A DNA stretch of 64,000 nt from Eubacterium sp. (GTDB lineage: Bacteria; Bacillota; Clostridia; Oscillospirales; Acutalibacteraceae). The first letter of the stretch is position 1, and each line of letters opens with the position of its first letter. The notes under the pieces were generated by a model. That model was not told the origin of the DNA. It saw only the letters and a program-made list of their open reading frames with translations, and made no database searches. A program made the translations under genes and the position numbers. Shown piece after piece: positions 821 through 55,030 of this stretch. The DNA lies in contig JAFUEH010000016.1 in the NCBI GenBank assembly GCA_017463985.1, positions 1 through 64,000 on the forward strand, read 5' to 3'.

Positions 821-850
821 TAAATACCATTTTCAATATTGCATTGTCAA
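821..850 (-). promoter_or_regulatory. Sigma-A-type promoter for the gene 192-767
   Basis: On the minus strand TTGACA (850-845) and TATTTA (826-821) are separated by 18 bp. The surrounding DNA is AT-rich and contains other TTGAAA / TAGAAT pairs, so the exact start of transcription is uncertain. Confidence 0.5.
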
Positions 851-904
851 TCATTTTACGATATAATATTTACAGTTGCACAACGCTTTATTAATACGAC
901 GTTA

Positions 905-1215
905 AAATCCGTGTGTTATCTTAAGCATAGGCGACTCGAACACGGTAGCCTAAAATCACTGAAAATGTCATATCTGCACATTTTTCTCCTCACCATACGC
1001 GAGTATGCTCTCGTCGAAGAAATGCACAGCTATACTCATTTTTAGCGATTTTAGGTGCGCAGCAGTTTAAAAAGTGCTGATTGGCGGTTAGACAAGGCAA
1101 AAAGCACAGAAATACTTGCCGTATTTCGAGCATTTTTAACGCAGTATAAGCGTCAATCAGCCTTTTTAAACCTCGCCGGGTTCGAGTCGCCTATGCTTAA
1201 GCAACATACGGTAAC
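905..1215. repeat. Palindromic three-arm element, copy 1
   Basis: The outer arms 920-941 and 1180-1201 are a perfect 22-bp inverted repeat, and the match continues imperfectly outwards to about 909 and 1211. Inside are two further hairpin arms: one closed by CCTAAAATC (949-957) with GATTTTAGG (1048-1056), and one closed by GTTTAAAAAG near 1067 pairing with CTTTTTAAAC ending near 1173. Drawn as RNA this is a three-way junction. A core at 1094-1126 recurs, inverted, in the element at 20783-21111. The outer arm contains GGGTTCGA, like a tRNA T-loop, but no tRNA can be folded. No protein is encoded. It fills the gap between the genes ending at 767 and starting at 1234. Confidence 0.8.
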
Positions 1216-1233: not shown

Positions 1234-2253
1234 ATGGATAATATGAACGGTACAAACGGGATTTCGCAGCCGACCGGCGGCGATAAAAAAAAGAAAACAA
1301 GAATTATCATTATTGTAGCGGCGCTGGTTGCCGTGCTGGTAGCCGGTGCTGTGACGGCGTTCGTTTTAAGCAGGCAGCACACGGTCAATTTTGAAAAAAA
1401 GACCAACGGCGACTATGAGATCGTCACGGACGCGAACGGTGAGCCGGTAACGGATGAGTTTGGTGAAGTGGTGACCATTCCGATCGGTGAGGTGACAGGC
1501 GCAGCAGAGGACAGCACGGACCCGTCGCAGGTAGGCAACGCCGGGAATGCCGGCGGCACCACAGCGGCAGGCGGTACCACTGCAGCAGGCGGAAATGCCG
1601 GTACTACCACCGCAGGCGGCAGCGGCAGTGACAGCGCAGCTACGACAAAGCAGACGATTAAGAAGCCGGACGCACCGGCAGCGGTCACCGGCGTGAAGGT
1701 AACGGACGCCGGCGAGGATAGCCTGACCGTGAAGTGGGATAAGGTGAAATGCGACGGTTACCAGATCAGCTACAGCGAAGATAATATTCACTGGACGAAT
1801 TATCCGACAGATCTCAGCAGTACCTATACGAGTAATTCGCTGAAGCTGTCGAAGCTGACCCCGTATACGCGTTACTATTTCAGCGTGCGTGCTTATAATA
1901 TCAATGAGGCAGGCGCTTCGGCTTCGGCTTGGTCGGCAACCGTCTACGGCGATACGCTGGAGGTGAAAAAGGAACGTCAGATCGAGGTCACTGTGAAGCT
2001 GCCGCGCGATTCTAATAAAGCGGACACGCTGGAAATTTGGGTGGACAACGAGCTGGCCTATACAGGCGATGTGCTGCTCAACGGCAGTGAGCAAATCGTC
2101 AAGCTGGATAAAAAATATAAGGGCGTTGTGACGGTTTGGGCAGGCCTCAAATCAGAGGACGTGGCTTCACAGAAGAAGGTCGGCGGCTATGATGTGGCGC
2201 TTGACCTTACCTCGATCGGTATCGATACGATCGAGGAAGAAGAGGAACTGTAA
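1234..2253 (+). CDS. Membrane-anchored fibronectin type III protein (339 aa)
   Basis: The N-terminus is cytoplasmic and polar, ends in KKKK, and is followed by one membrane helix (about residues 23-46), so the rest faces outward. Next comes an acidic segment with the motif DANGEPVTDEFGEVVT, a low-complexity Gly/Ala/Thr linker (about 105-140), a fibronectin type III domain (about 150-245, with the typical LTVKWD, GYQISYS and YYFSVRAYN strands) and a C-terminal beta-rich region of about 90 residues ending in an acidic tail. A role in envelope binding or adhesion is inferred from this architecture. The start is supported by GAGGTG 5 nt before the ATG. It is monocistronic and closed by a terminator. 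The GC-rich repetitive linker could vary in length between strains. Confidence 0.8.
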   Translation: MDNMNGTNGISQPTGGDKKKKTRIIIIVAALVAVLVAGAVTAFVLSRQHTVNFEKKTNGDYEIVTDANGEPVTDEFGEVVTIPIGEVTGAAEDSTDPSQVGNAGNAGGTTAAGGTTAAGGNAGTTTAGGSGSDSAATTKQTIKKPDAPAAVTGVKVTDAGEDSLTVKWDKVKCDGYQISYSEDNIHWTNYPTDLSSTYTSNSLKLSKLTPYTRYYFSVRAYNINEAGASASAWSATVYGDTLEVKKERQIEVTVKLPRDSNKADTLEIWVDNELAYTGDVLLNGSEQIVKLDKKYKGVVTVWAGLKSEDVASQKKVGGYDVALDLTSIGIDTIEEEEEL

Positions 2254-6402: not shown

Positions 6403-6607
6403 ATGATAGATTACAGTTGACCTATATACAGTTTGCAAGCAGTACGGCAACACTGCTAAAAATGGCACCCATCTTACAAGAAGGGGGTAAAACAGCAAAC
6501 ATTACATAGGCTATTCGCCAATTGAAGCTAAAGAAATATCTCAGAAACAAACAATATTATATTTTAAGATTAAATTTTTAAGCAACAAAATATGGGAGAC
6601 ATCATGA
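6403..6607 (+). pseudogene. Decayed small gene with frameshift and nonsense codon
   Basis: A strong GAGGGAGGG ribosome site precedes ATG at 6403, but that frame stops after MIDYS. If one base near 6409 is ignored, a protein-like frame runs from 6410: ITVDLYTVCKQYG..., is broken by TAA at 6488-6490, and continues in the same frame with NSKHYIGYSPIEAKEISQKQ and on to TGA at 6605-6607. Together this looks like a small protein of about 65 residues with one frameshift and one nonsense mutation. I cannot name the family. Its end overlaps the start of the next gene, as in an operon. Alternatively this is an untranslated leader of about 290 nt that happens to look coding. Confidence 0.4.
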
Positions 6608-8370
6608 AAAAATTTATAAGTTTATTATTTTCAACCATCATACTGTTAAGCACCGTTGCCGGTTTCAATATTACCACTTATGCAGCTTATGATACTATTG
6701 ACACTGCAAGAAATATGACGCTTGGAACAACCTATTCAAGTTCTATTACTAGTAGTAATAATATCGATTATTATAAATTTACGATAACGTCGTCATCGGC
6801 AGTCAATTGGAAGTTTATTGGTGCAATTAATCAAGTTCATATTTATTTCTACAATGCTGACGGTAGTGATTTATGGTATAACTATTATGATGCTAACAGC
6901 TCCGGTCAGATTTCATTAGACAGGTCTATCGATTTAACAAAAGGTACCTACTATATTGCTGTATCGAAGCGAAACGGTTACACTGGCAATTACTCGTTGA
7001 CGGTTTCTGCTGTTTCAGCCGGCGAAAGCTTTAATGAAACCGGGAAGGGTACTAACAATACCATTCAAACAGCCAACAACATATCGCTTGGTACTACCTA
7101 CAAGGGACAAATTGCATACAATGATAATGTTGATTATTATAAATTTACGATAACGTCGTCATCAGCAGTCAATTGGAAGTTTATTGGTGCAATTAATCAA
7201 GTTCATATTTATTTCTACAATGCTGACGGTAGTGATTTATGGTATAATTATTATGACGCAAACAGTTCTGGTCAAGTAGAACAGAATAACTCGATTGATT
7301 TAACAAAAGGTACTTACTATATTGCTGTATCAAAACGAAACAGTTACACTGGCAATTACTCGTTGACGGTTTCTGCTGCTACAGCCGGTGAAAGCTTTAC
7401 TGAAACCGGGAACGGAACTAATAACACCATTCAAACATCCAACAGCATATCGCTTGGTACTACCTACAAGGGACAAATTGCATACAATGATTATGTTGAT
7501 TATTATTCATTTGACGTATCCGATTCGACCGGTATCCACTTGAATTTGGAAGGCGAAGTCAAAGGTATAAATATTGATATTTATAATAAAGATAGCGCCT
7601 CTGTATTCAGCGATTATTATTATGCCAACAGTGCTGGAAAAATAGTCGTAAATGAAAACATTACCATGCCAAATGGTAAATACTATTTAAAAATTTCCCA
7701 ACGCAACAATGCGACAGGCAATTATCAATTCAAGCTTGGCAGTGTCAAAATCGGCTGGCAGAATATTAACGGAAAATGGTTCTACTATCCGCCCGAAGCT
7801 AACGGTGATACAATAGCCATCGACTTTTGGGCAATTGACGGCAAGTACTACTATTTCGGTGATGACGGTGTTATGCGTACAGGATGGCAAACAGTAAACG
7901 GTAACACATATTATTTCAGCAAAGACGGTTCAGCACTGAGATGGAGCCAGAAAATTGGAAATAAGTACTATTATTTTAACAGTAGCTATGTTCTTCAAAA
8001 GGGTTGGCTAAAAATATCCGGAAAGTGGTATTTGTTCCGTTATGCGGATGGCTCTATGATTACAGGATGGTACAAAGGCGGTAAAACTTGGTACTACTTC
8101 AACTCGTCCGGTGTGATGCAGACAGGTTGGCAAAAAATTGGTGGGGCTTGGTATTGGTTCAATACATCCGGTGCTATGAAAACAGGCTGGCAAAAGATCG
8201 GTGGAACATGGTATTACTTCAAAGCCTCCGGTGCGATGCAAACCGGCTGGACGAAAATAGGCGGGAAATGGTATTATTTCAATACGTCTGGTTCTATGCG
8301 TACCGCCAACCTGACACAAGGCGGAAAAACCTATCGCTTCTATTCAAGCGGTGCTTGTATAAATCCATAA
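6604..8370 (+). CDS. Secreted PPC-repeat protein with choline-binding-type wall repeats (588 aa)
   Basis: A signal peptide (1-28, cleavage after TTYAA likely) is followed by three tandem beta-sandwich units of about 122 residues that resemble pre-peptidase C-terminal (PPC) domains: each starts with an NTIQTANNISLGTTY-like segment, then VDYYKFTI and ends GTYYIAVSKRN..TGNYSLTV. Units 1 and 2 are almost identical in DNA. From about residue 395 onward come about nine cell-wall-binding repeats of the GWQKIGGKWYYFNTSGAMKT type, ending in GGKTYRFYSSGACINP. No catalytic domain is present, so a structural, adhesive or glycan-binding role is inferred. The start at 6604 is chosen because GGGAG lies just upstream; an ATG at 6592 lacks a site. 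The gene is clearly more AT-rich than its neighbours, a sign of acquisition. Confidence 0.85.
   Translation: MKKFISLLFSTIILLSTVAGFNITTYAAYDTIDTARNMTLGTTYSSSITSSNNIDYYKFTITSSSAVNWKFIGAINQVHIYFYNADGSDLWYNYYDANSSGQISLDRSIDLTKGTYYIAVSKRNGYTGNYSLTVSAVSAGESFNETGKGTNNTIQTANNISLGTTYKGQIAYNDNVDYYKFTITSSSAVNWKFIGAINQVHIYFYNADGSDLWYNYYDANSSGQVEQNNSIDLTKGTYYIAVSKRNSYTGNYSLTVSAATAGESFTETGNGTNNTIQTSNSISLGTTYKGQIAYNDYVDYYSFDVSDSTGIHLNLEGEVKGINIDIYNKDSASVFSDYYYANSAGKIVVNENITMPNGKYYLKISQRNNATGNYQFKLGSVKIGWQNINGKWFYYPPEANGDTIAIDFWAIDGKYYYFGDDGVMRTGWQTVNGNTYYFSKDGSALRWSQKIGNKYYYFNSSYVLQKGWLKISGKWYLFRYADGSMITGWYKGGKTWYYFNSSGVMQTGWQKIGGAWYWFNTSGAMKTGWQKIGGTWYYFKASGAMQTGWTKIGGKWYYFNTSGSMRTANLTQGGKTYRFYSSGACINP
6766..7252 (+). 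repeat. Near-identical direct repeat inside the PPC-repeat gene
   Basis: About 120 bp at 6766-6886 recur at 7132-7252 with only a few silent differences, an offset of 366 bp (122 codons). The third unit has diverged. This indicates a recent intragenic duplication or gene conversion. Confidence 0.8.
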
Positions 8371-16616: not shown

Positions 16617-17261
16617 GTGACCCTGACAGTGAACAGAGAAGCCGTGTTGACGGTATTGGATGAAGCACAGCTGCACCGTGAAATCGCCGCTTACCTGGAG
16701 GAAGTGATGGGGACAGAGCTGGCAAAGGAGGCGCCTGACTGTGACCTGATCGATGAATGCGTCGCCGTGCTCGAAGCATTGCAAAGTAACGGAGAAGCTG
16801 CTCCGATGCTGCGCCTGCGCGTGACAAAGCCGCAGCTGACCGCATACTGCCGGCGGCATTCCAAGCGCGGCGCGGTGCAAAAGGGTGTGATCGCCGCAGC
16901 ATTAGCGCTCGTGATCAGCGGTACGGCAGCGTTTTATACCGTTCCGGCCTTTGCGGGCAGTGTACGTACGCTGTTTGAGCGCGTGGTCTATTCGCTGACA
17001 ACGGCGGTAGCGGACACGGAGGAGGACGGCGAGGTCGTTTCTATCTATGCCACCGTTCCGGAAAACGGTGACGTCCGTAACGCTGCGGTCACCGCCGTCC
17101 TGCGCGACGGCAGTGAACAAGCAGTGCCGCTGAACGACTGCCGTATTACTCAAACGACTGAGGAAGCAGACGGCGAACGCTATGTGCTGACGGTGATTGC
17201 CTATAAAGGCTGTGCCTGCAGTCTGATCACGGAAGCAGAGGAAGGAGTGACCGAACCGTGA
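16617..17261 (+). CDS. Membrane protein, putative anti-sigma factor (214 aa)
   Basis: A cytoplasmic N-terminal domain of about 85 residues (acidic, helical, including LDEAQLHREIAAYLEEVMGT) is followed by one membrane helix (about 87-108) and an outer domain of about 105 residues with beta character. This is the layout of ECF anti-sigma factors, and the position directly behind the sigma gene agrees. I see no clear zinc-binding HxxxCxxC motif, so the family is not proven. GTG at 16617 has AAAGGAGG 8 nt upstream. Its TGA stop overlaps the GTG of the next gene, so all three genes are co-translated. Confidence 0.65.
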   Translation: MTLTVNREAVLTVLDEAQLHREIAAYLEEVMGTELAKEAPDCDLIDECVAVLEALQSNGEAAPMLRLRVTKPQLTAYCRRHSKRGAVQKGVIAAALALVISGTAAFYTVPAFAGSVRTLFERVVYSLTTAVADTEEDGEVVSIYATVPENGDVRNAAVTAVLRDGSEQAVPLNDCRITQTTEEADGERYVLTVIAYKGCACSLITEAEEGVTEP

Positions 17262-20200
17262 GAAATATGAAAAAATTCCTGAGTCTGCTGCTGGCAGTGC
17301 TTATGGTGATCGCGATGCTGCCGCTTAGTAGCATCGCAGCGCTGGCAACAGCGTCAGACAACACTTTTGATGTTAAAATCATTTACGAAAGCGGCAGCCG
17401 CCGGTACGGCGAGATCACCGCTTATAATGGAAGCGATACGTCGGTGACCTTTCCGTCGCAGATCGGTGATGTGCAAATCGTCGGCGTGTCGATCACGAAA
17501 CAGCCGAAGGAGGCGAATGCCTTGCGGTCGGTAACGGTCAGCGAGGGAATTATCTACATTGGCGCGAATACCTTCAGCGGCTGCCGTGCGCTGCAGATCA
17601 CACTGCCGGAAAGCCTGCGCTATATCGGCACGCGTGCTTTTAATTTTTCCTCGATTGCGCGTATTAATTTTCCGTCCGGTCTGGAGGGAATCGATATGTT
17701 TGCGTTTGACAGCGTTACCTTTGCCGATACGGCGGTAACGCTGCCGGACAGCCTGCTGTACCTTGGTACTTATGCCTTTGCAGAATCCAATATTACCGCT
17801 TGCCATTGTGGCAGCAGAGTCAAACCGGCCCTTATGGAATATGCTTACCCGGGCAGCGTGATCGAGCGTTATGCCGCCTTCACGATTCCGGGCACCGATG
17901 GCGAGGTACTGCCCTTTGCCTGCTGTGAGGAGCTCCGGCTGTTGAGCGCTGATCCGGAAAATCCGTATATCACCGTGAAGGATAACGCGCTCTACACGGA
18001 CGGCGGCAGAACGCTACAGGTTGTTGCCGGTGACCGTGACCGCTTTTCGATCGATGATACGGTGGAAACACTTTGCCCTTATGCCTTCCATGAGGGACAG
18101 CATATCGGTGAGCTGTATATCGGCAGCGGCTTACAGACCTTGCCGGAGGACGCCTTTGCCGGCATGAATATCGGTAGCGTACAATTCAGTGCTGCCTGTC
18201 AGCTGCGGAAAATCAGCAATGGCGCTTTTTCCGGCGCTACGGTGGCTGAGCCGCTGGTGATTCCGAAAAGTGTACAGGAAATTGAAGAGTCTGCATTCAG
18301 TACGGCCACCCTGTCTGATGTTAGTTTTGAAGAAAATTCGTCGCTGTCGGTAATGCATTATCATGCGTTCTTTAATGCGGTTGTCAACAGTGTGGATTTT
18401 TCCAATTGTCGGGCTATGACTTTGCTTGGCAGAGGTAGCTTTTCCTATTCCACGCTGCGCACCGTGGACTTGTCGAATACTTTGATCGGAAAGCTCGAGG
18501 GATACACCTTTGAGGGCTGTGAGGAGCTGACATCAGTGATCCTGTCGGACTATACGTCTGAGCTTGACAGCAATTGCTTTAAGGACTGCGACAGTCTTGA
18601 AGAGGTTCATTACGGTTATTCCATCACGATTCCGTCAGACGAACAAATACCGTTCAAGCACGATGCGGCGTTTGTTCAGTGGACGACGGTGGGAGATTTT
18701 AAATTCGCAGAGTATGAGGATTATGCCAGCTTAGCAAAGTATCAAGGAGAAAAGGAAATCGACACCTTAACCATCCCCGATACGGTTAACGGTAAGCCCG
18801 TAAAGGAGATTCGTAAAGATGTTTTCAACGCGTCGCTGAAGCAGTGCCGTCAGGTCATACTGCCGCAGCAACTGGAAGTGATCGGCCCGAATGCCTTTTT
18901 TAACAGCGGTATTACGGAGATCGAGCGATTTCCCGATGCACTGAAATATATTGGCTCCAATGCCTTTGCCTCCAATCCGCTGACGGCTTTGCAGCTGAAT
19001 GACGGCTTGCTGTATATCGGCGGGAGCGCCTTCCGCGGCAGCGATATTGCCGATTTTACCGTGCCGGATACGGCGGTGCGCGTCGGTTACTATCCTGTGA
19101 AACAGTGTCAAACGCTTTCCTTCGGCGCAGCTGTTAGGAATATCGAGGAGACGCTGGGTTTGGAAGAGGAGAGCGGCGACGCTGTCCGGAAAACACTCGC
19201 TGCGATCACGGTAAGCGACAGTAATCCGTGCTATACGTCAAAGGACGGCGTGCTCTACAACAAGGATATGACGGAGCTGATTTATTATCCGGCCGACAAG
19301 CCTGATCGGGAGTTCGTCGTACCCGAGAGTGTGCAGGTGATCGGTGAGTATGCCTTTCGGGAGGCGCAGCACCTCGAAAAGATGACCTTGACCGCGGTGC
19401 GCCGTATCGGTCAGGATTCCTTTGAGGGCTGTCGGGTGCTGCAAACGGTCGTATTCAAAAACGACGTGTCCATTCAGCGGCTCAAAAGTACCTTTGCTGA
19501 TCTCAGCACACTGACGACTGTTGTATTTAAAGATGGCGCCGAGGTGGTGCAGCTGAGTTATACCTTTTGCGGCACCTCGCTGACCGATATTTGTCTGCCG
19601 TCCGGCGTGAGAGCTGTTAACGGTGCCTTTGCCGATGTCAGAACGCTGCGTTCTGTTACCTTCTCCGAGGGGATCGAAACGGTCGGCGCCAACGCCTTCC
19701 GCGGTACTGCACTGACGGCGCTGTCCCTGCCGCAGAGCTTGCGCCATATCTCACAGGACGCTTTCGCGGATTGTGTTGATTTACAGCAGCTGTCGCTCGG
19801 CGGCACACAGTATATCGGTAAAAACGCTTTTGCCGGTTGCCTTTCTCTGACCCAGGTAGATCTGACCGGCATACGCACCGAACCGGATGCGTTCAAAGAC
19901 TGCATTAATCTGAAAAAGCTCCGCTTTGATGATCTGCAAAGCCAGACCCCGATTACGGAGGACGCGTTTGAAGGAAACGGATCGGTAGAAACGGTTGTGA
20001 TCGGGTCGTCTGTCAGTGAAATTCAAAGCCGCGCCTTTGCCGATTGTACAGCGTTGGAGACGGCATATATTTCCGATAGCGTGACGGCGATCGCGGAGGA
20101 TGCCTTTGACGGTTGTGAGCAGCTGACGATCGTATGTATGGCCGGCTCGCCGGCGATGCATTATGCCGTGAGCAATAATATTCCGTATCAAACCTTTGTG

Positions 20201-20785
20201 ATCGCGCCGATTCCTGACCAACCCTATACCGGACGTGCCGTTACGCCTGCATTGCAGGTATCGCAGGGCGGCAAGCGCCTGACCGTTGATAAAGAGTACC
20301 GTGCCATTTATAGCGATAATGTGCAGATCGGTACGGCGACGGTGACCGTCGTCGGCCTCGGTGATTACAGTATTTTTGGCACAACAGCGAAGTTTCATAT
20401 CGTCGCATCGACCGTGAAAAACGGCTGGCAGCAGCGCGGCGGACAGTGGTATTATTACCGCGGCGGCAGCGCTGTTCGCTACTGGCAGAAAATCAGCGGT
20501 AAGTGGTATTATTTCAATACGCAGGGTGTGATGCTGACCGGTTGGCTGAAGGCAAAAGGAAAATGGTACTACCTGCGCGACAGCGGTGCGATGGCTACCG
20601 GCTGGGTAAAGGTAAAGGGGAAGTGGTACTACCTGAATACAGACGGCGCGATGCAAACGGGCTGGCTCAAGCTCGGCGGAAAATGGTATTACCTCAATAC
20701 GGACGGCGCTATGCGCACAGCAAGCTTAAAGCAAGGCGGTAAGACCTACCGTTTTAACAGCAGCGGCGTCTGCACCAATCCATAG
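17258..20785 (+). CDS. BspA-like leucine-rich repeat surface protein with wall-binding repeats (1175 aa)
   Basis: Signal peptide at 1-32 (FLSLLLAVLMVIAMLPL core). Residues ~40-985 are an irregular array of LRR_5 (BspA/Treponema pallidum type) repeats, recognisable by units such as VQVIGEYAFREAQHLEKMTL and IGKNAFAGCLSLTQVDL. A short bacterial Ig-like unit (~990-1050; YTGRAVTPALQV..GTATVTVVGLGDY) follows, then five or six choline-binding-type repeats (GWLKAKGKWYYLNTDGAMQT) and the end GGKTYRFNSSGVCTNP. Role: non-covalently wall-attached adhesin or host/glycan-binding protein, inferred from relatives. GTG at 17258 overlaps the upstream stop, AAGGAG 10 nt before it. The stop TAG lies inside the left arm of a palindromic element. 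Confidence 0.9.
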   Translation: MRNMKKFLSLLLAVLMVIAMLPLSSIAALATASDNTFDVKIIYESGSRRYGEITAYNGSDTSVTFPSQIGDVQIVGVSITKQPKEANALRSVTVSEGIIYIGANTFSGCRALQITLPESLRYIGTRAFNFSSIARINFPSGLEGIDMFAFDSVTFADTAVTLPDSLLYLGTYAFAESNITACHCGSRVKPALMEYAYPGSVIERYAAFTIPGTDGEVLPFACCEELRLLSADPENPYITVKDNALYTDGGRTLQVVAGDRDRFSIDDTVETLCPYAFHEGQHIGELYIGSGLQTLPEDAFAGMNIGSVQFSAACQLRKISNGAFSGATVAEPLVIPKSVQEIEESAFSTATLSDVSFEENSSLSVMHYHAFFNAVVNSVDFSNCRAMTLLGRGSFSYSTLRTVDLSNTLIGKLEGYTFEGCEELTSVILSDYTSELDSNCFKDCDSLEEVHYGYSITIPSDEQIPFKHDAAFVQWTTVGDFKFAEYEDYASLAKYQGEKEIDTLTIPDTVNGKPVKEIRKDVFNASLKQCRQVILPQQLEVIGPNAFFNSGITEIERFPDALKYIGSNAFASNPLTALQLNDGLLYIGGSAFRGSDIADFTVPDTAVRVGYYPVKQCQTLSFGAAVRNIEETLGLEEESGDAVRKTLAAITVSDSNPCYTSKDGVLYNKDMTELIYYPADKPDREFVVPESVQVIGEYAFREAQHLEKMTLTAVRRIGQDSFEGCRVLQTVVFKNDVSIQRLKSTFADLSTLTTVVFKDGAEVVQLSYTFCGTSLTDICLPSGVRAVNGAFADVRTLRSVTFSEGIETVGANAFRGTALTALSLPQSLRHISQDAFADCVDLQQLSLGGTQYIGKNAFAGCLSLTQVDLTGIRTEPDAFKDCINLKKLRFDDLQSQTPITEDAFEGNGSVETVVIGSSVSEIQSRAFADCTALETAYISDSVTAIAEDAFDGCEQLTIVCMAGSPAMHYAVSNNIPYQTFVIAPIPDQPYTGRAVTPALQVSQGGKRLTVDKEYRAIYSDNVQIGTATVTVVGLGDYSIFGTTAKFHIVASTVKNGWQQRGGQWYYYRGGSAVRYWQKISGKWYYFNTQGVMLTGWLKAKGKWYYLRDSGAMATGWVKVKGKWYYLNTDGAMQTGWLKLGGKWYYLNTDGAMRTASLKQGGKTYRFNSSGVCTNP

Positions 20786-21111
20786 CCATAGCACTCGCAT
20801 TCGAACCACGGTTTAGAATGGCAAATTGAACTTATTTCTACGTTGAAAATGCTTACTGTGTATAAGTTCCATTAACCAAATTATAAATTTGGAATGTCAC
20901 TTACGCAATACGGCAAGTATTCCTGTGCTTTTCGCCTTGAACTAAGCCCAATTTGCTCATTCTAAACTGCAAAGCACCTAAAACCGTGGGAGTTAAGATG
21001 AAGTTTGGTGCTTTGAGGGCGCAGCTTGGCTGTCGCCAAGCAAGAACGAAAACATCAAAGTTCGCTTAAATACACGGTTTTAGGCGGGTTCGAATACGAG
21101 CGCTATGGCTA
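20783..21111. repeat. Palindromic three-arm element, copy 2 (inverted relative to copy 1)
   Basis: Outer arms 20783-20807 and 21087-21111 match as a 25-bp inverted repeat with two mismatches. Inner arm one is closed by GGTTTAGAATG near 20811 with CATTCTAAAC near 20960. Inner arm two is closed by CCTAAAACCGTG (ending ~20995) with CACGGTTTTAGG (~21074-21085) and contains a GCTTGG/CCAAGC hairpin. The core 20907-20939 is the reverse complement of 1094-1126 in copy 1, and the order of the two inner arms is also reversed, so this is the same element in the opposite orientation. It fills the gap after the BspA-like gene and codes for no protein. Confidence 0.8.
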
Positions 21112-30928: not shown

Positions 30929-33900
30929 ATGAAAAGACGCATCGCCATAATGGCGGCAATTCTTTTAATCATATCCTCATCGTTTGTGACAGTGCCTGTT
31001 ATGGCGACGGAAGCAGCTGTTGAGACAGAGTCGGTAGGCGACGTCTATGATGCGCTGGCGGAGCAGGATAACGCCGCGGTGCAGACGCTGACACTGACGG
31101 AGACGGCGGACGTTATCGCTGAGCTTGACCGCGACGCTGACTATGTTACTGCGGACGAGGCTGCGGAGGAGGACGTTGTGACCGAGGAGGATACGACGTT
31201 TCAGACGAAGCGGCTGCTGGTAAAGACGCAGCGGCTTGATAACGATTTCGGCGCGGAGCAGGTGATCTGTTATGCCGATGATGAGTATATTCTCTGCTAT
31301 GCCACGGCGGAGCAGGCGTCGCTTGCGCTGCAGTGCTTTGACGAGGAGGGCGTTGCGGAATACGCCGAGCCTGACAGTGTTGGCGGTATCTCCACCGTTC
31401 CGACCGATATGCAGCCAAACAGCAGCACCAGTCACATCAGAGTGCCGGAATATATGAATACGCTGGATATCAGCAAGCTGCGCAGCATCACGGTTGCCGT
31501 AGTGGATACCGGCGTTGATACGGCGCATGAATATCTGCAGGGACGTATTGTGAGCGGCGGCTATGATTTTATCGAATCCGATACCGATGTGACGGACGAC
31601 AACGGTCACGGCACGCACGTCAGCGGCATTATTGTCAATGCGACGCCAAGCAATGTAAAAATATTGCCGATCAAAGCCATGAATTCCGCCGGCAGCGCCG
31701 CAGACAGCACCGCTATTTTGGCGATCCGTTATGCAGCCGATCACGGTGCAGACATTATTAATATGAGCTTTAGCTATCAGGATAGCTTAAATGCGATCCA
31801 GAGCGCTATTGATTATGCAAAAAGCAAAAATTGCCTGTGCGTGGCAGCGGCCGGTAACGATTTTATAGATGCCTCTACTGTTGCACCGGCGGGCTGCGAC
31901 GGCGTGCTGACAGTCAGCGCGGTGGACGATAGCGATACGATGTGCGCCTTTTCCAACTTCGGTGACGTGGTGGATATTGCCGCACCGGGTAGCAGTGTCT
32001 TAAGCAGCGTGCCAAATAATAAATATCAAAGAATGAGCGGCACCTCGATGGCGACGCCTTATGCGGCTGCGGCTGCTGCGCTGATCGCTTCGCAGAAAAA
32101 AAGCATTACGCCTGACGCCTTGAAGGAAGCAGTCTGTGCCGCCACGGTGGACTGCGGTCCTGTCGGAAAGGATATTTTTTACGGCAACGGTGCGCTCTCG
32201 TTTGCCAAAATCTTAGGCTATGATATTGCGCCGAGCAAAGTAGGACTGCTGATGAACCTGCCGGACGACGGTATCCCGTACGCCAAAATGTTACCCGATA
32301 ATTATAAGTCCATGAAGCCGGAATATCACTTTTTGATGCCGCGCGTCTCCAATGCGAATGCCACGGATAAAACGGTTACCGTCACCGTAGAAGACCCCTC
32401 TATATTAGAGATGGATTGCTTTATTATTCGCCCAAAGAAGCCCGGTACCACGACGGTGACCTTTACCACGGCGAACGGCAAGTCGATGTCTCAGCAAGTC
32501 ACTATTATAGACAGCGATCTTTGGCTGGATTATGCGGCGAGCAGCTACGGCGGCGGTAGCGGTACGATGACAGATCCCTACCTGATCGAGACGCCGGAGC
32601 AGATGGCGAAAATGGCGCTTGATTATCAGTATGACCGTATTAGCACACCGCTGTATTTTCGCCAGACAAAGGACATTGATCTGTCCGCCCACCAATGGTT
32701 TTCAATTAAGGCAAGAAATCCGGAGCACGTTTCCATAGCTGCGAACTATGACGGCGGCGGCTATGAAATTCGCGGCTTAACAGCGCAGGAAAGCGTGATG
32801 CATCTGGATAATTATCAATACGGTTTGTTTGCCTTTAACACAGGCCATTTAGAAAACATTCATTTAGTGGATACGAATATTGATGCTGTTCATGATGTCG
32901 GCGGGCTATGTGCGCATTTCTACGGCAGCGCGGCCTATTGCAGCGTCAGCGGCATTGTCCGTAGTGCCACTGCTAATGCAGGCGGTTTATTTGGCAGAAT
33001 CAATATCGGTACCGGCGATCCCACGCACGAGGTGATTCACGACTGCTATACCGATGCGGCGGTTTATGGAGAATGGGCAGGCGGTATTGTTGCCGATTAC
33101 GCAACCTCCTGCAGGCTGTACCGCTGCGTCAGCGAGGCGACGGTATCGTCACCGGACAGCAAATATACCGGCGGTATTGCCGAGATCGCAGCGCCGAGTG
33201 AGGTCATTTTGGCACGAAGGGTTGTGCCGATAGGCGGCTCCGTGATAGATAACTGCCTTTCCTCTACCAATATTTTTGCGTTCAAAAAATTTTACGAAAA
33301 CGATACCTACTATGCTGACGGCTCCTTGCTGAAGGCGACGGTGAAGGATTGCTATGCACTGGAGGATCGGATCACGGAAGACACCGATCCGGAGAACACG
33401 CAGATCACGGTATTAGACCGACTGCCTGATAGCCAAGCGGCGTTTGAAGCGGTGATGGGAGAACGTGCTGCCGAATGGGATTTTGACACCGTATGGGAAT
33501 TTGTTGACGGCAAGCTCCGTCTCCGCCGCCGTGCTTATCAGCCTCAAACGGGCGATTTTGATTACGTCAACCTTGACGGTGTAGCGATCCTTACAGGCTA
33601 TCGCGGAAAGAGTAAGGACGTTGTGATTCCGTCAACGGTGGACGGCTTGCCCGTGCGCTATATTAAGCATCATTTTGAGCTTTACGGTACGCCGGTCACC
33701 TCTCTGACCTTCCCCTCCTCGGTGGAACGCATCGCCGGTTGTGCCTTTGCAAATGCAGCTTCGCTGCAAAAGGTCACCTTCAGCGAAGGCTTGAAGGCGA
33801 TCGGCTACGACGCTTTCTACAATACAGGGCTTTGTTATCCTGTTATATTACCGAAAAGCCTGCAGGATTACGGACCGTTTGCTTTTGCGTGCGACAAGCT

Positions 33901-34813
33901 GGAGGATGTGTATTTCCAAACGCCGGCCACCGCGCGTATCTCCTCTACCTTGGGAAGTGACTACAGCAAAACGGTGTTCCATTATCCGGCAGATTATACC
34001 GACGCGTGGAAGAACGAACGCTTTTCCAAGTATACGACGAAGCCGTTTGCATGGAACAGCGTATGGGGACTCTATCACAACTATGGCGACGCCGCGGTGT
34101 CGCTCCCGTATCACAAGGCGGTCGCTCTGCAGGTTCAGTTTGTGAATCCGAAGGCGGTCAACAAAGGCCTCCACTGGTCTTGCGATAGCATTTACTTCAC
34201 TGTAGATCAAAAGGGAAATATCACCTGCAATCATTTCGGCTCACAGGCTACCGTAACAGTTACTTCTGACGACGGCAGCGCTGTTACAAAAATCCGCGTC
34301 CGTACCGATCCCAGCCTCAAGGCGTATGACGATTGGTTCACCTACGGCGGAAAAAAGTATTACATCTTAGTGAGCGGTGATTATGCGCAGGGCTGGAAAA
34401 AGATCAACGGAAAATGGTATTATTTCAATGCCGATAAGATCATGCAGACCGGTTGGCAAAAGCTTGGCGCGTGGTACTATTTTGCGTCTGACGGCGCCAT
34501 GCGTACCGGTTGGCAAAAGGTGAGCGGCAAGTGGTATTACATGAACAGCAGCGGCGCCATGCGTACCGGTTGGCAAAAGGTGAGCGGCAAGTGGTATTAC
34601 ATGAATAGCAGCGGTGCCATGCAGACCGGCTGGCAAAAGCTCGGCGGTAAGTGGTATTACTTTAACGGCAGCGGCGCCATGCAGACCGGCTGGCAGAAGC
34701 TCAGCGGTAAGTGGTATTATTTTGAAAGCAGCGGCGCCATGCGGACAGCTAACCTGACGCAGGGCGGCAAAACCTACCGCTTCAACAGCAGCGGTGCGTG
34801 TCTGAATCCGTAA
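30929..34813 (+). CDS. Secreted subtilisin-like serine protease with LRR and wall-binding repeats (1294 aa)
   Basis: Signal peptide 1-27, then an acidic propeptide (~28-160). The S8 peptidase domain has the full catalytic triad: Asp193 (AVVDTGVD), His227 (NGHGTHVSG) and Ser373 (MSGTSMATPYAAA), with oxyanion Asn in AAAGND. After it come a beta-rich spacer, a GLUG-like beta-helical region (~535-850), a short LRR_5 stretch (~875-1010), a bacterial Ig-like segment and six or seven wall-binding repeats (GWQKVSGKWYYMNSSGAMRT), ending GGKTYRFNSSGACLNP. It should be a wall-attached protease acting on external or host proteins. It has its own promoter, AGGAGG-like site (CGGAGG) and terminator, and stands directly behind an ECF sigma/anti-sigma pair. 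Confidence 0.92.
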   Translation: MKRRIAIMAAILLIISSSFVTVPVMATEAAVETESVGDVYDALAEQDNAAVQTLTLTETADVIAELDRDADYVTADEAAEEDVVTEEDTTFQTKRLLVKTQRLDNDFGAEQVICYADDEYILCYATAEQASLALQCFDEEGVAEYAEPDSVGGISTVPTDMQPNSSTSHIRVPEYMNTLDISKLRSITVAVVDTGVDTAHEYLQGRIVSGGYDFIESDTDVTDDNGHGTHVSGIIVNATPSNVKILPIKAMNSAGSAADSTAILAIRYAADHGADIINMSFSYQDSLNAIQSAIDYAKSKNCLCVAAAGNDFIDASTVAPAGCDGVLTVSAVDDSDTMCAFSNFGDVVDIAAPGSSVLSSVPNNKYQRMSGTSMATPYAAAAAALIASQKKSITPDALKEAVCAATVDCGPVGKDIFYGNGALSFAKILGYDIAPSKVGLLMNLPDDGIPYAKMLPDNYKSMKPEYHFLMPRVSNANATDKTVTVTVEDPSILEMDCFIIRPKKPGTTTVTFTTANGKSMSQQVTIIDSDLWLDYAASSYGGGSGTMTDPYLIETPEQMAKMALDYQYDRISTPLYFRQTKDIDLSAHQWFSIKARNPEHVSIAANYDGGGYEIRGLTAQESVMHLDNYQYGLFAFNTGHLENIHLVDTNIDAVHDVGGLCAHFYGSAAYCSVSGIVRSATANAGGLFGRINIGTGDPTHEVIHDCYTDAAVYGEWAGGIVADYATSCRLYRCVSEATVSSPDSKYTGGIAEIAAPSEVILARRVVPIGGSVIDNCLSSTNIFAFKKFYENDTYYADGSLLKATVKDCYALEDRITEDTDPENTQITVLDRLPDSQAAFEAVMGERAAEWDFDTVWEFVDGKLRLRRRAYQPQTGDFDYVNLDGVAILTGYRGKSKDVVIPSTVDGLPVRYIKHHFELYGTPVTSLTFPSSVERIAGCAFANAASLQKVTFSEGLKAIGYDAFYNTGLCYPVILPKSLQDYGPFAFACDKLEDVYFQTPATARISSTLGSDYSKTVFHYPADYTDAWKNERFSKYTTKPFAWNSVWGLYHNYGDAAVSLPYHKAVALQVQFVNPKAVNKGLHWSCDSIYFTVDQKGNITCNHFGSQATVTVTSDDGSAVTKIRVRTDPSLKAYDDWFTYGGKKYYILVSGDYAQGWKKINGKWYYFNADKIMQTGWQKLGAWYYFASDGAMRTGWQKVSGKWYYMNSSGAMRTGWQKVSGKWYYMNSSGAMQTGWQKLGGKWYYFNGSGAMQTGWQKLSGKWYYFESSGAMRTANLTQGGKTYRFNSSGACLNP
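34496..34740 (+). repeat. Tandem 60-bp repeats coding for wall-binding units
   Basis: At least four consecutive 60-bp units at exact 60-bp spacing. Units starting at 34501 and 34561 differ at only two positions; those at 34621 and 34681 are also close. Each encodes one GW-x-KxxGKWYY repeat. Such identity favours copy-number change by slippage or recombination. Confidence 0.85.
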
Positions 34814-48682: not shown

Positions 48683-51600
48683 ATGTTCACCCACCTTCAC
48701 CTTCATACGCAATTTAGTTTGCTGGACGGCGCGTGCCGTCTCGGCAATCTTGTCGCGCGCGCGAAGGAGCTGGGCATGACCTCCTTGGCGATCACGGATC
48801 ACGGCAATATGTACGGCGCCGTGGACTTTTACCGTGAATGTAAAAAGCAGGGAATTCAGCCGATCATCGGCTGCGAGGTGTATGTGGCGCCGCGTTCTCG
48901 CTTCGACAAGGAAAAAGCGCCGGACCGCGATTATCACCATCTGATTTTGCTGGTGAAAAACGAAACGGGATACAAGAACCTGATCAAAATGGTATCGCTT
49001 GGCTTCACCGAGGGCTTTTACCGCAAGCCGCGTATTGACCGCGACCTGCTCGAAAAGTATGCGGAAGGCCTGATCTGTCTTTCCGCCTGCCTTGCCGGTG
49101 AGATTCCTCAGCTGCTGCTGCAGCGCGATTACGAGGGCGCGAAGCGTGAGGCGCTTTGGTATGCCTCCGTATTTGGCGAGGGCAATTACTATCTTGAATT
49201 ACAGGATCACGGCTTGGACGAGCAAAAAATTGTGCTCGACGGGCTGAAACGCCTGCATGACGAAACCGGCCTGCCGCTGGTAGCGACCAATGACGTTCAC
49301 TATGTCAATCGGGAGGATGCGGAGATTCAGCAGGTGCTGATCTGTATTGCGACGAACCACGTCCTCGGTGAGGACACCGGCCTGGAATTTCACAGCGATC
49401 ATTTTTATCTGAAAAGTGAAGAAGAAATGCGCGCTGTTTTTGCCGATGTGCCGGAGGCAATTGATAACACACAGTTGATTGCCGAGCAGTGTCGCTTTGA
49501 TTTTGAGTTCGGCAATACAAAATTGCCGTATTTCGCCACGCCGGGGAACATGGATCACTTTGCCTATTTCCGGCAGCTATGCTATAAAGGAATGCATAAG
49601 CGTTACGGTACGTCGGTGCCACAGGAATATATCGACCGGTTAGAATACGAGCTGGAAACGGTCAATACCATGGGTTATACCGACTACTATCTGATCGTGC
49701 AGGATTTTGTGCGCTTTGCAAAGTCAAAGGATATTCCCGTCGGACCCGGCAGAGGCTCGGGCGCCGGTTCGCTCGCAGCTTACTGCATCGGTATTACGGA
49801 TTTAGACCCGATGAAGTATGACCTGATCTTTGAGCGTTTTCTGAACCCTGAGCGCGTCTCTATGCCCGACTTTGATATTGACTTCTGCTACGAACGGCGG
49901 CAGGAGGTTATTGACTATGTCACCGAAAAATACGGGTACGACCATGTTGCGCAGATCGTTACCTTCGGTACGCTGCAAACGCGTGCGGCGATCCGCGATG
50001 TCGGCAGAGTTATGGGAATGCCGTACGCGGTGGTCGACGCGGTTGCCAAATTAATTCCGAATGTTTTTAAAATAACAATAGACGACGCCGTGAATAAGAG
50101 TAAGGAACTGCGCGCCGCCATGGCGGAAAACGAGCAGGTGGCACGCCTGATTGAGATCGCGCGCAAGGTGGAGGGTATGCCGCGCAATACCTCTACGCAC
50201 GCCGCCGGCGTGGTGATTACGCACGATCCGGTATCCTCTTATGTGCCGCTGGCGACGAATGACGGACTGGTGGTTACGCAGTATATCATGACCACGCTGG
50301 AGGAGCTTGGTCTGCTTAAAATGGACTTTTTGGGCTTGCGGACCTTGACCGTGATCGACGACGCTGCGAAGGCGTCCGGCGTGAATATCCATCAGATCCC
50401 GATCGACGATCCGAAGGTATATAAAATCTTTTCCACCGGTAAAACGGAGGGAATTTTTCAGTTTGAATCCGGCGGCATGAAACAGATGCTGATGAATTTG
50501 GCGCCTACGCGACTGGAGGATCTGATTGCCGCGACCTCGCTTTACCGTCCCGGACCGGCAAGTCAGATAGATACGTTTGTCGCCAATTCTAAAAATCAGC
50601 ATAAAATACACTACGCGACGCCGCAGCTGGAGCCAATCCTGAAAAACACTTATGGCTGTATTGTCTATCAGGAACAGGTGATGCAGATCTTCCGCAGCCT
50701 TGCCGGCTATTCTTACGGCAGGGCGGATGTGGTGCGCCGTGCGATCAGTAAGAAAAAGCCGGAGGTACTCGAACGGGAGCGCGAGAGCTTTATTGAAGGC
50801 TGTCGGCAAAACGGTATTCCGGCAGAAACCGCAACGGCTATTTTTAACGAAATGACGGATTTTGCCGGCTATGCGTTTAATAAGTCGCACGCTGCCTGCT
50901 ATGCGCTGGTGGCTTATCAGTGCGCCTACCTGAAATGCTATTATCCGGCGGCGTTTATGGCGGCGCTGCTGACCTCTGTACTGGATTCGTCGAATAAGGT
51001 GGCGCGCTATATTGCGGAATGTAAGCGCCTTGGATTGCGACTGGCGCCTCCGGATATTAACGCTTCTATGAAGGGCTTTACGGCCAGCGGCAATGTGATC
51101 AACTATGGCCTGCTCGGCATTAAAAATTTGGGCAACGATTTCATTGAGGAGATCATTGCCGAACGGCAAAACGGACCCTTTCAGGATATTTTTGATTTCT
51201 GCGAGCGGATGCAAAGCGGCCATTTTAACCGACGCGCAGTGGAATCGCTGATACGCTGCGGCGCGATGGATGGCTTTGACGCCAACCGCCGTCAGATGCT
51301 GCAGGGCTTGCCGGTGCTGGTGACGAATATCGAGGAAAACCGCCGTAAAACGATGTACGGTCAGGTGGGACTGTTTGATATCAGCGAGGAGTTCGGCACC
51401 GCGTTCGACCTGCCGGAGGTAGAGGAATTTTCTCAGCAGGAGCGCCTGCAGATGGAAAAGGAAATGACAGGGCTGTACCTGTCCGGTCATCCGATGGATA
51501 AATATGAACGGTTTATGGAGGAAACCGGCTGTGCCAATACCTTTGAGCTGCTGGAAGCGGCGAAGGGCGGCGCTGCGTACCGGGATCGTTCACCGGTGAC

Positions 51601-54694: not shown

Positions 54695-55030
54695 GCATGT
54701 GAAGTTGCGTATATATTATATATTAATATGCACTCACGTCCAACACTGATATGCGATGATGCCGGAGGTTGCGTCCGCAGCACTACCCGATGTGTGCTGC
54801 TTAACCCGGACGGGAATTTCGGCGGAGTATGTCCGATTTAAAACCGGGCGAAACTAATCCAGACTACTTTGATATTAGGTGACTTGCGAACGCTTAATAT
54901 TTAAAGGGAAATTCTGCGTCCGAATGAAGCTTCATTCGGTTTAATTAATGAGGCGGCAGGAAACACCCGGCCTCGTAGTCAAAAACACAGAACGGTTTGG
55001 AAGCTCGCACCAAAAAATTCATGGAGGAAT
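54695..55030 (+). promoter_or_regulatory. Long structured 5' leader of the S10 operon
   Basis: About 340 nt lie between the promoter and rpsJ. Clear stems are GTCCG-CAGCAC (54773-54783) with GTGCTG (54794-54799) and CGGAC (54807-54811), and a perfect 20-nt palindrome CCGAATGAAGCTTCATTCGG (54920-54939) followed by TTTAATTAAT. No reading frame is convincing. A ribosomal-protein-binding autoregulatory leader is the likely role; the family is not identified. Confidence 0.6.

Follow-up and report, generated by a model that had tools for sequence, protein, structure and literature searches.

A probable gene-less, TA-inserting MITE of clostridia with a hairpin core that recurs in three phyla and ends that differ by lineage

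Introduction

Correia/NEMIS, RUP and ERIC elements are bacterial MITEs with TA ends, and the accessible part of PMC2229807 describes them as short, gene-less and intergenic units with terminal inverted repeats and a very stable fold. For MITEAba12 the mover, ISAba12, was inferred from terminal repeats identical to those of a resident IS, the likeness being confined to the ends (PMC6382973, accessible part). REP palindromes are intergenic palindromic repeats of high copy number (PMC3733652, accessible part). The elements described here resemble the first group in each of those features, MITEAba12 in how a mover is recognised, and REPs in being intergenic, palindromic and numerous.

MITEs are usually known by their ends and within narrow host groups, whereas the present family is united by its centre. 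Two members, elements 1 and 2, lie in a 64-kb stretch of Eubacterium sp. DNA (the window). We consider it probable, at roughly 75%, that both are gene-less MITEs that insert at TA and are moved in trans through their terminal repeats, with a core that may act in cis and ends that may change with the transposase.

Results

Two closed elements in the window

A reading made from the sequence alone (the sequence-only reading) had described a closed three-arm element at 905-1215, sealed by a perfect 22-bp inverted repeat. The closed three-arm plan holds; the bounds do not, since the element runs from 922 to 1199 and the imperfect pairing of 909-917 with 1203-1211 falls outside it (Table 1). These boundaries match the point at which homology between copies in relatives ends, at ~278 bp. 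The 22-bp repeat is present within a 26-nt inverted repeat at 96% (920-945 / 1176-1201). For element 1 the predicted fold is a three-way junction of -134.5 kcal/mol, whereas 100 shuffles average -70.6 ± 5.7 (z -11.2, or -12.0 when folded as DNA), and element 2 forms a closed three-way junction with z -12.7 as RNA, so that the fold first proposed is far stabler than shuffles in both.

An 83-nt segment is common to the two elements, 77% identical and inversely oriented (1046-1128 / 20904-20986), in agreement with the shared, reversed core of the sequence-only reading, and the reversed arm order of element 2 follows from reading a near-palindrome on the opposite strand. Element 2 is the longer owing to a nested ~52-nt palindrome beside the core hairpin. 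This AT-rich insert occurs in two copies of the window's genome (element 2 and the C19 copy, L016) and is perhaps a second, smaller mobile palindrome. The TAG stop of the neighbouring LRR/choline-binding gene is formed by the left TA of element 2 and the next G. Neither element (278 and 329 bp) contains an ORF of at least 90 aa, as expected from the earlier statement that no transposase lies inside. Correia-type ends read TATAGTGGATTAA..., and the ends of elements 1 and 2, TA followed by AGCATAGG and TA followed by GCCATAGC, do not fit them. A third match of the core covariance model (R2) in the window, at 50811-50858 (16.3 bits, E 0.061), was regarded as chance.

Table 1 Positions of the two elements, their parts and neighbouring features in the window
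Feature	Position	Strand	Basis or remark
Element 1	922..1199	+ (core strand)	TA (922-923) to TA (1198-1199), 278 bp; sequence read
Left terminal inverted repeat / outer stem, element 1	924..945	+	Repeat search, fold
Right terminal inverted repeat / outer stem, element 1	1176..1197	+	Repeat search, fold
Arm A, accessory arm of element 1	947..1056	+	Fold, consensus structure
Arm B of element 1, contains core	1065..1171	+	Fold, covariance model, consensus structure
Conserved core hairpin (AAGGC...AACGCAG), element 1	1094..1144	+	R2 match 1084-1153, 75.1 bits
Short imperfect flank pairing	909-917 with 1203-1211	none	Outside element 1; fold
Promoter-like TTGCAT-N17-TATAAT	839..867	+	Also in four relatives without the element
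fn3-domain protein gene	1234..2253	+	3' of element 1
Element 2	20783..21111	- (core strand)	TA (20783-20784) to TA (21110-21111), 329 bp; sequence read
~52-nt palindrome beside core hairpin of element 2	20853..20904	-	Same insert in C19 copy
Left half of core in element 2 (33-bp segment)	20907..20939	-	R2 match 20829-20948, 39.7 bits
LRR / choline-binding protein gene	17258..20785	+	Stop codon overlaps left TA of element 2

Upstream of element 1 lies a putative promoter, which is common to four relatives that lack the element; element 1 therefore appears to sit within the 5' untranslated region of the fn3 gene, with its core strand in sense. The order of the left gene, the fn3 gene and the pyruvate-ferredoxin oxidoreductase gene is kept in three relatives (L416, L424, L426), and a fourth (L417) keeps the left gene and the fn3 gene in order. 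Among loci taken at the left gene, none of those of 11 relatives gave an R2 match, while the window's own locus did. A loose core pattern (up to two substitutions) matched L416 and L426, in both cases in lysine-rich coding sequence; these were rejected as elements, R2 giving nothing there. The sequence-only reading had proposed looking for empty sites: at the window's locus these relatives lack the element, and the Neisseria pair described below shows one site with and without it.

Elsewhere in the window, an S10-Clostridia ribosomal protein leader (RF03136) was matched at 54747-54851 with 36.8 bits against a gathering score of 35.1. Three ORFs (6592-8370, 17258-20785 and 30929-34813) carry related ~60-bp repeats near their 3' ends, the second of them being the LRR protein with choline-binding repeats.

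Copies in the genome and its relatives

What had been taken for a family of two copies is larger: an arm-B covariance model, built from 15 sequences, finds 8 copies in the window's genome (2.58 Mb, 41 contigs), and a DNA search shows truncated ones as well. The copies in this genome are 77-85% alike by plain DNA comparison. Further copies in related genomes, on which the sequence-only reading had made its proposal depend, are common. The DNA search matched 19 of 40 genomes and the arm-B model 45 of 60, own included in both, the latter spanning 11 of 24 genera with up to 26 matches per genome. Five genomes (G001, G011, G012, G047 and G051) hold pairs of copies that are 97-99.6% identical over ~278 bp, together with diverged pairs, down to ~70%. 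Identity between the near-identical copies ends at the same point on both sides, the copies being bounded by TA and their flanks unrelated. The copies in the window's own genome are older; the near-identical pairs are those of relatives.

Several copies lie at contig ends. Two stumps (G001:C92:12117-12158 and G073:C1:458431-458478) consist of little beyond two ends placed back to back, and look like copies that have lost their interior. An autonomous, core-carrying element was sought and none seen: ORFs lying up to 2.5 kb from the core in the 80 listed loci formed no family common to more than five of them.

A core in three phyla with varying ends

A hairpin core of ~51 bp is common to elements of Bacillota, Bacteroidota and Pseudomonadota, and the terminal repeats differ by lineage and also within Neisseria. 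A scan of a genome-contig collection with a pattern that fixes 23 letters, for which a hand estimate gives ~0.2 matches by chance over the entire collection, found at least 120 stretches, a figure that shows breadth and not frequency, with 80 loci among the matches listed. Those listed include records not marked as MAGs in each phylum: Pseudoflavonifractor sp. An44 in Bacillota, Lewinella cohaerens DSM 23179 and Phaeodactylibacter xiamenensis in Bacteroidota, and Neisseria dentiae in Pseudomonadota, as well as Pasteurella testudinis and Cerina litoralis. Core-sharing relatives in gut clostridia, Neisseria and Saprospiraceae make an unusually wide range for such an element. Most Neisseria and Saprospiraceae elements measure 150-162 bp between the TAs (the ~160-bp type) and are thus too short for arm A.

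No match was found in the viral contigs, phages or E. coli genomes searched. A plasmid search gave no match for the Neisseria element; for the Oscillospiraceae element it returned one and three records, a Borrelia record being doubtful. No description of the core was found in the open-access literature searched by title and start of abstract, with subscription journals and bioRxiv outside its scope, and the accessible parts of PMC10969869, PMC3733652, PMC2229807 and PMC6382973 contain no such core.

Two variants stand apart. Three G073 loci (L341 2540-2830, L355 and L356) have an additional hairpin in the asymmetric loop of the core, which makes that loop larger. The ends of four G047 copies (L116-L118 and L121) resemble a tRNA T-arm (GGGAGTCGAACCC); the 64-kb window contains no tRNA gene.

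Probable conservation of the palindromes as DNA

Twenty elements from the window's own order, chosen by a length filter of 268-282 bp after near-identical ones had been dropped, yield a consensus three-way junction with 72 pairs, of which 53 show one or more compensatory double changes, the kind of change between copies that the sequence-only reading had predicted for the stems. Watson-Crick pairing reaches 0.83 in the outer stem, 0.84 in arm A and 0.93 in arm B, and falls to 0.51, 0.62 and 0.72 with partners from other elements. Similarly, 94.0% of cells pair in a 60-sequence core alignment, against 33.7-49.2% when slid and 69.1% when shuffled.

Among pairs predicted on both strands, G-U and A-C wobbles occur evenly in three alignments (6:4, 9:12 and 40:29; p 0.75, 0.66 and 0.23), a comparison of limited power because Watson-Crick pairs dominate. 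This evenness favours a DNA palindrome or hairpin correction over a single transcript, and the palindromes look conserved as DNA, or by hairpin correction, rather than as one RNA.

Even wobbles are also what hairpin-templated correction would give if the core had no function of its own, the arms being kept palindromic by correction and the wide spread reflecting recent horizontal transfer, as the same ends (TAGGGCTTCCTGACAATT) in Pasteurella testudinis and Neisseria sp. suggest. We think this account rather unlikely. Correction would erase fixed bulges, yet the fixed bulges of the core recur in three phyla; and the core has stayed alike where ends and outer stems have drifted far apart, bearing in mind that in the core alignment the letters set by the scan pattern were bound to be invariant. 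A passive MITE of one transposase would be expected to keep its ends better than its centre; here it is the other way round, which suggests that the core does something in cis. Candidate roles are an aid to transposition, a site for a host factor, or a fold that makes insertions tolerable.

The sequence-only reading had left room for a structured RNA/DNA element. A structured RNA could be either a cis-regulator or a unit spreading via its transcript, and its stems would be kept by transcript folding. Such an RNA would suit the very stable folds, the extensive covariation and the apparent sense position of element 1 in a 5' untranslated region. Core-strand-specific predictions favour G-U over A-C (20:4, 67:21 and 73:32), but those of the other strand favour the opposite wobbles, each strand preferring its own as expected from the method, and the pairs common to both strands are even. 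The core strand folds better in 28 of 32 elements from outside the order (17/21 other and 11/11 Neisseria-group), yet in only 6 of 27 from within it, a contradictory result that amounts to 34/59 overall (p 0.058). Folding each strand gives 295 G-U pairs in 4727 against 303 in 4733, and no Rfam family matches the element at gathering score, the only matches being weak and due to chance. With wobbles lacking a strand preference, we regard the RNA reading as improbable.

Probable insertion at TA and a candidate mover

TA on both sides is usual in the main type of element. In N. dentiae the element is bounded as TA[element]TA, and in G073 the flanks are joined with TG, the adjoining pieces being 93-96% identical; the pair was read by eye, with some of the right flank wrongly placed by MAFFT. 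Target duplication of TA plus one later substitution would account for what is seen, the evidence being this single filled/empty pair, whose empty site reads TG.

Genome G061, of a Neisseria sp., contains an 871-bp transposon that encodes a 250-aa transposase and has ends reading TA followed by GGGCTTCCTGACAATT. Its end is identical to that of core-bearing elements of the same genome over 16 of 16 bp plus TA, the same 18 letters being found in 3 of 8 element loci while the others differ. The transposase belongs to the IS5 family (NF033580, 252 bits against a cut-off of 110; DUF4096, DDE_Tnp_1), a group of transposons that we take to be IS427. Given these identical ends, the resident transposon is likely to be the mover of the matching copies in G061. 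End identity is seen in Neisseria only; elsewhere the mover is one we would infer. The mobile, MITE-like unit suggested at the outset gains from the sharp-ended near-identical copies, the filled/empty Neisseria pair and, in this one Neisseria genome, the matching ends of a resident transposon.

G073 also has a two-frame IS5-type transposon, 812 bp between TAs, whose ends agree with those of a rarer element variant there over 13 bp plus TA. The commonest end occurs in 56 copies there; no pair encloses a transposase among the longer-spaced pairs inspected, and no transposon partner lies within 3 mismatches. Two longer arrangements were rejected as autonomous elements, neither containing a transposase: one has 740 bp with an L-PSP/RidA-type gene between two half elements, and the other a single end 5' of a SIMPL-domain gene. 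The comparison with transposase termini that had been proposed succeeded in part: matching ends were found in G061, while searches of the window's genome for PF01609 and PF13358 gave no match. Across the genus, PF01609 was found in 10 of 80 genomes, and by eye none of 11 loci, one of them partly masked, had fitting ends. The core model matched none of the transposons, a match at L376 belonging to a neighbouring element.

An IS630-type mover was also rejected. PF13358 transposons (13 matches, in G073 only of 8 genomes) carry Correia-like ends instead. These ~915-bp transposons (L360-L372), with ends TATAGTGAATTAAAATAAGAA, are a candidate mover of Correia-like elements. A 116-bp insertion in G073 (L327 1732-1847), absent from N. 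dentiae, has ends similar to TATAGTGAATTAAAATAAGAA.

A subfamily in putative terminator loops

Copies with ends like GGGTGGGCAACTTAGGGAT, found in two families of the order, lie inside hairpins, one half of the stem being on each side of the element, in most cases with T-runs further out; as many copies have T-runs on either side, we claim no strand preference. For the 11 copies with both flanks (six from G001, two each from G006 and G027, one from G048), the two flanks have a mean pairing energy of -19.4 kcal/mol, compared with -10.0 (sd 4.0) in 110 cross-pairings, although none of the 11 lies below every cross-pairing. The uninterrupted flank stem measures 5-14 bp (mean 8.5, against 4.3 in the cross-pairings). 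Most are preceded by AA on the left and followed by TAA on the right, TA being absent at the left. A palindromic target for all copies was rejected, the property being confined to this subfamily: in TA-bounded copies the stem is 4.38 against 4.30 (n=90, nine of 99 places having been dropped as misassigned or spurious, with a few doubtful ones remaining). An earlier duplex-energy test on all 99 places gave -10.0 against -8.0 (sd 4.2), with 13% in the lowest 5%, a small excess due in part to misassigned ends.

Movement by another route, through a two-base crossover or a single-strand intermediate (a site-specific recombinase, or an IS110-like or hairpin-binding transposase) with TA as the shared dinucleotide, is very improbable: TA flanks alone cannot separate duplication from a shared dinucleotide, the AA/TAA flanks of the subfamily lie in hairpin loops and the window's genome yielded no PF01609/PF13358 mover, but the terminal inverted repeats are long and, in some copies, identical to those of a co-resident IS5-family DDE transposon.

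Discussion

On our preferred reading, the MITE would insert at TA, and a transposase acting in trans would read its terminal inverted repeats. The window's copies may owe their movement to a broadly similar transposase that is now missing from the assembly. The core would act in cis as a DNA module, its palindrome with fixed bulges aiding the spread or tolerance of the element, and the family could persist by switching its ends to suit whichever transposase is resident.

A more elaborate form of this, which we put forward tentatively, holds that the element carries two signals: exchangeable ends that follow the resident transposase, and a fixed core that gives the element its identity and is recognised by a conserved factor of host or mobile origin, with one branch living in terminator loops. 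There, a closed fold in the loop of a terminator hairpin would leave the terminator stem able to form. If that branch is real, it offers a low-cost landing site chosen by fold.

A family united by its centre and spanning clostridia, Saprospiraceae and Neisseria would imply that such elements can change movers and cross phyla. MITE finders that work from the ends would split one such family into many. The core, for its part, is a concrete bait for finding its binder.

Among known systems, REPs differ in build, being 20-40 bp long with GTAG or CGTC tags and tyrosine transposases (PMC3733652, accessible part), where the present elements have long TA-bounded inverted repeats. MITEAba12 makes 9-bp target duplications within one host family (PMC6382973, accessible part), against TA and three phyla here. 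The IS5-family transposons with DUF4096 (NF033580) have ends and TA flanks as in some core-bearing Neisseria elements; unlike these, they carry a transposase and no core. Correia/NEMIS, RUP and ERIC, as the accessible part of PMC2229807 presents them, are known from narrow host groups, whereas the core described here is found in three phyla with varying ends, and its clostridial form differs from them further in folding as a three-way junction.
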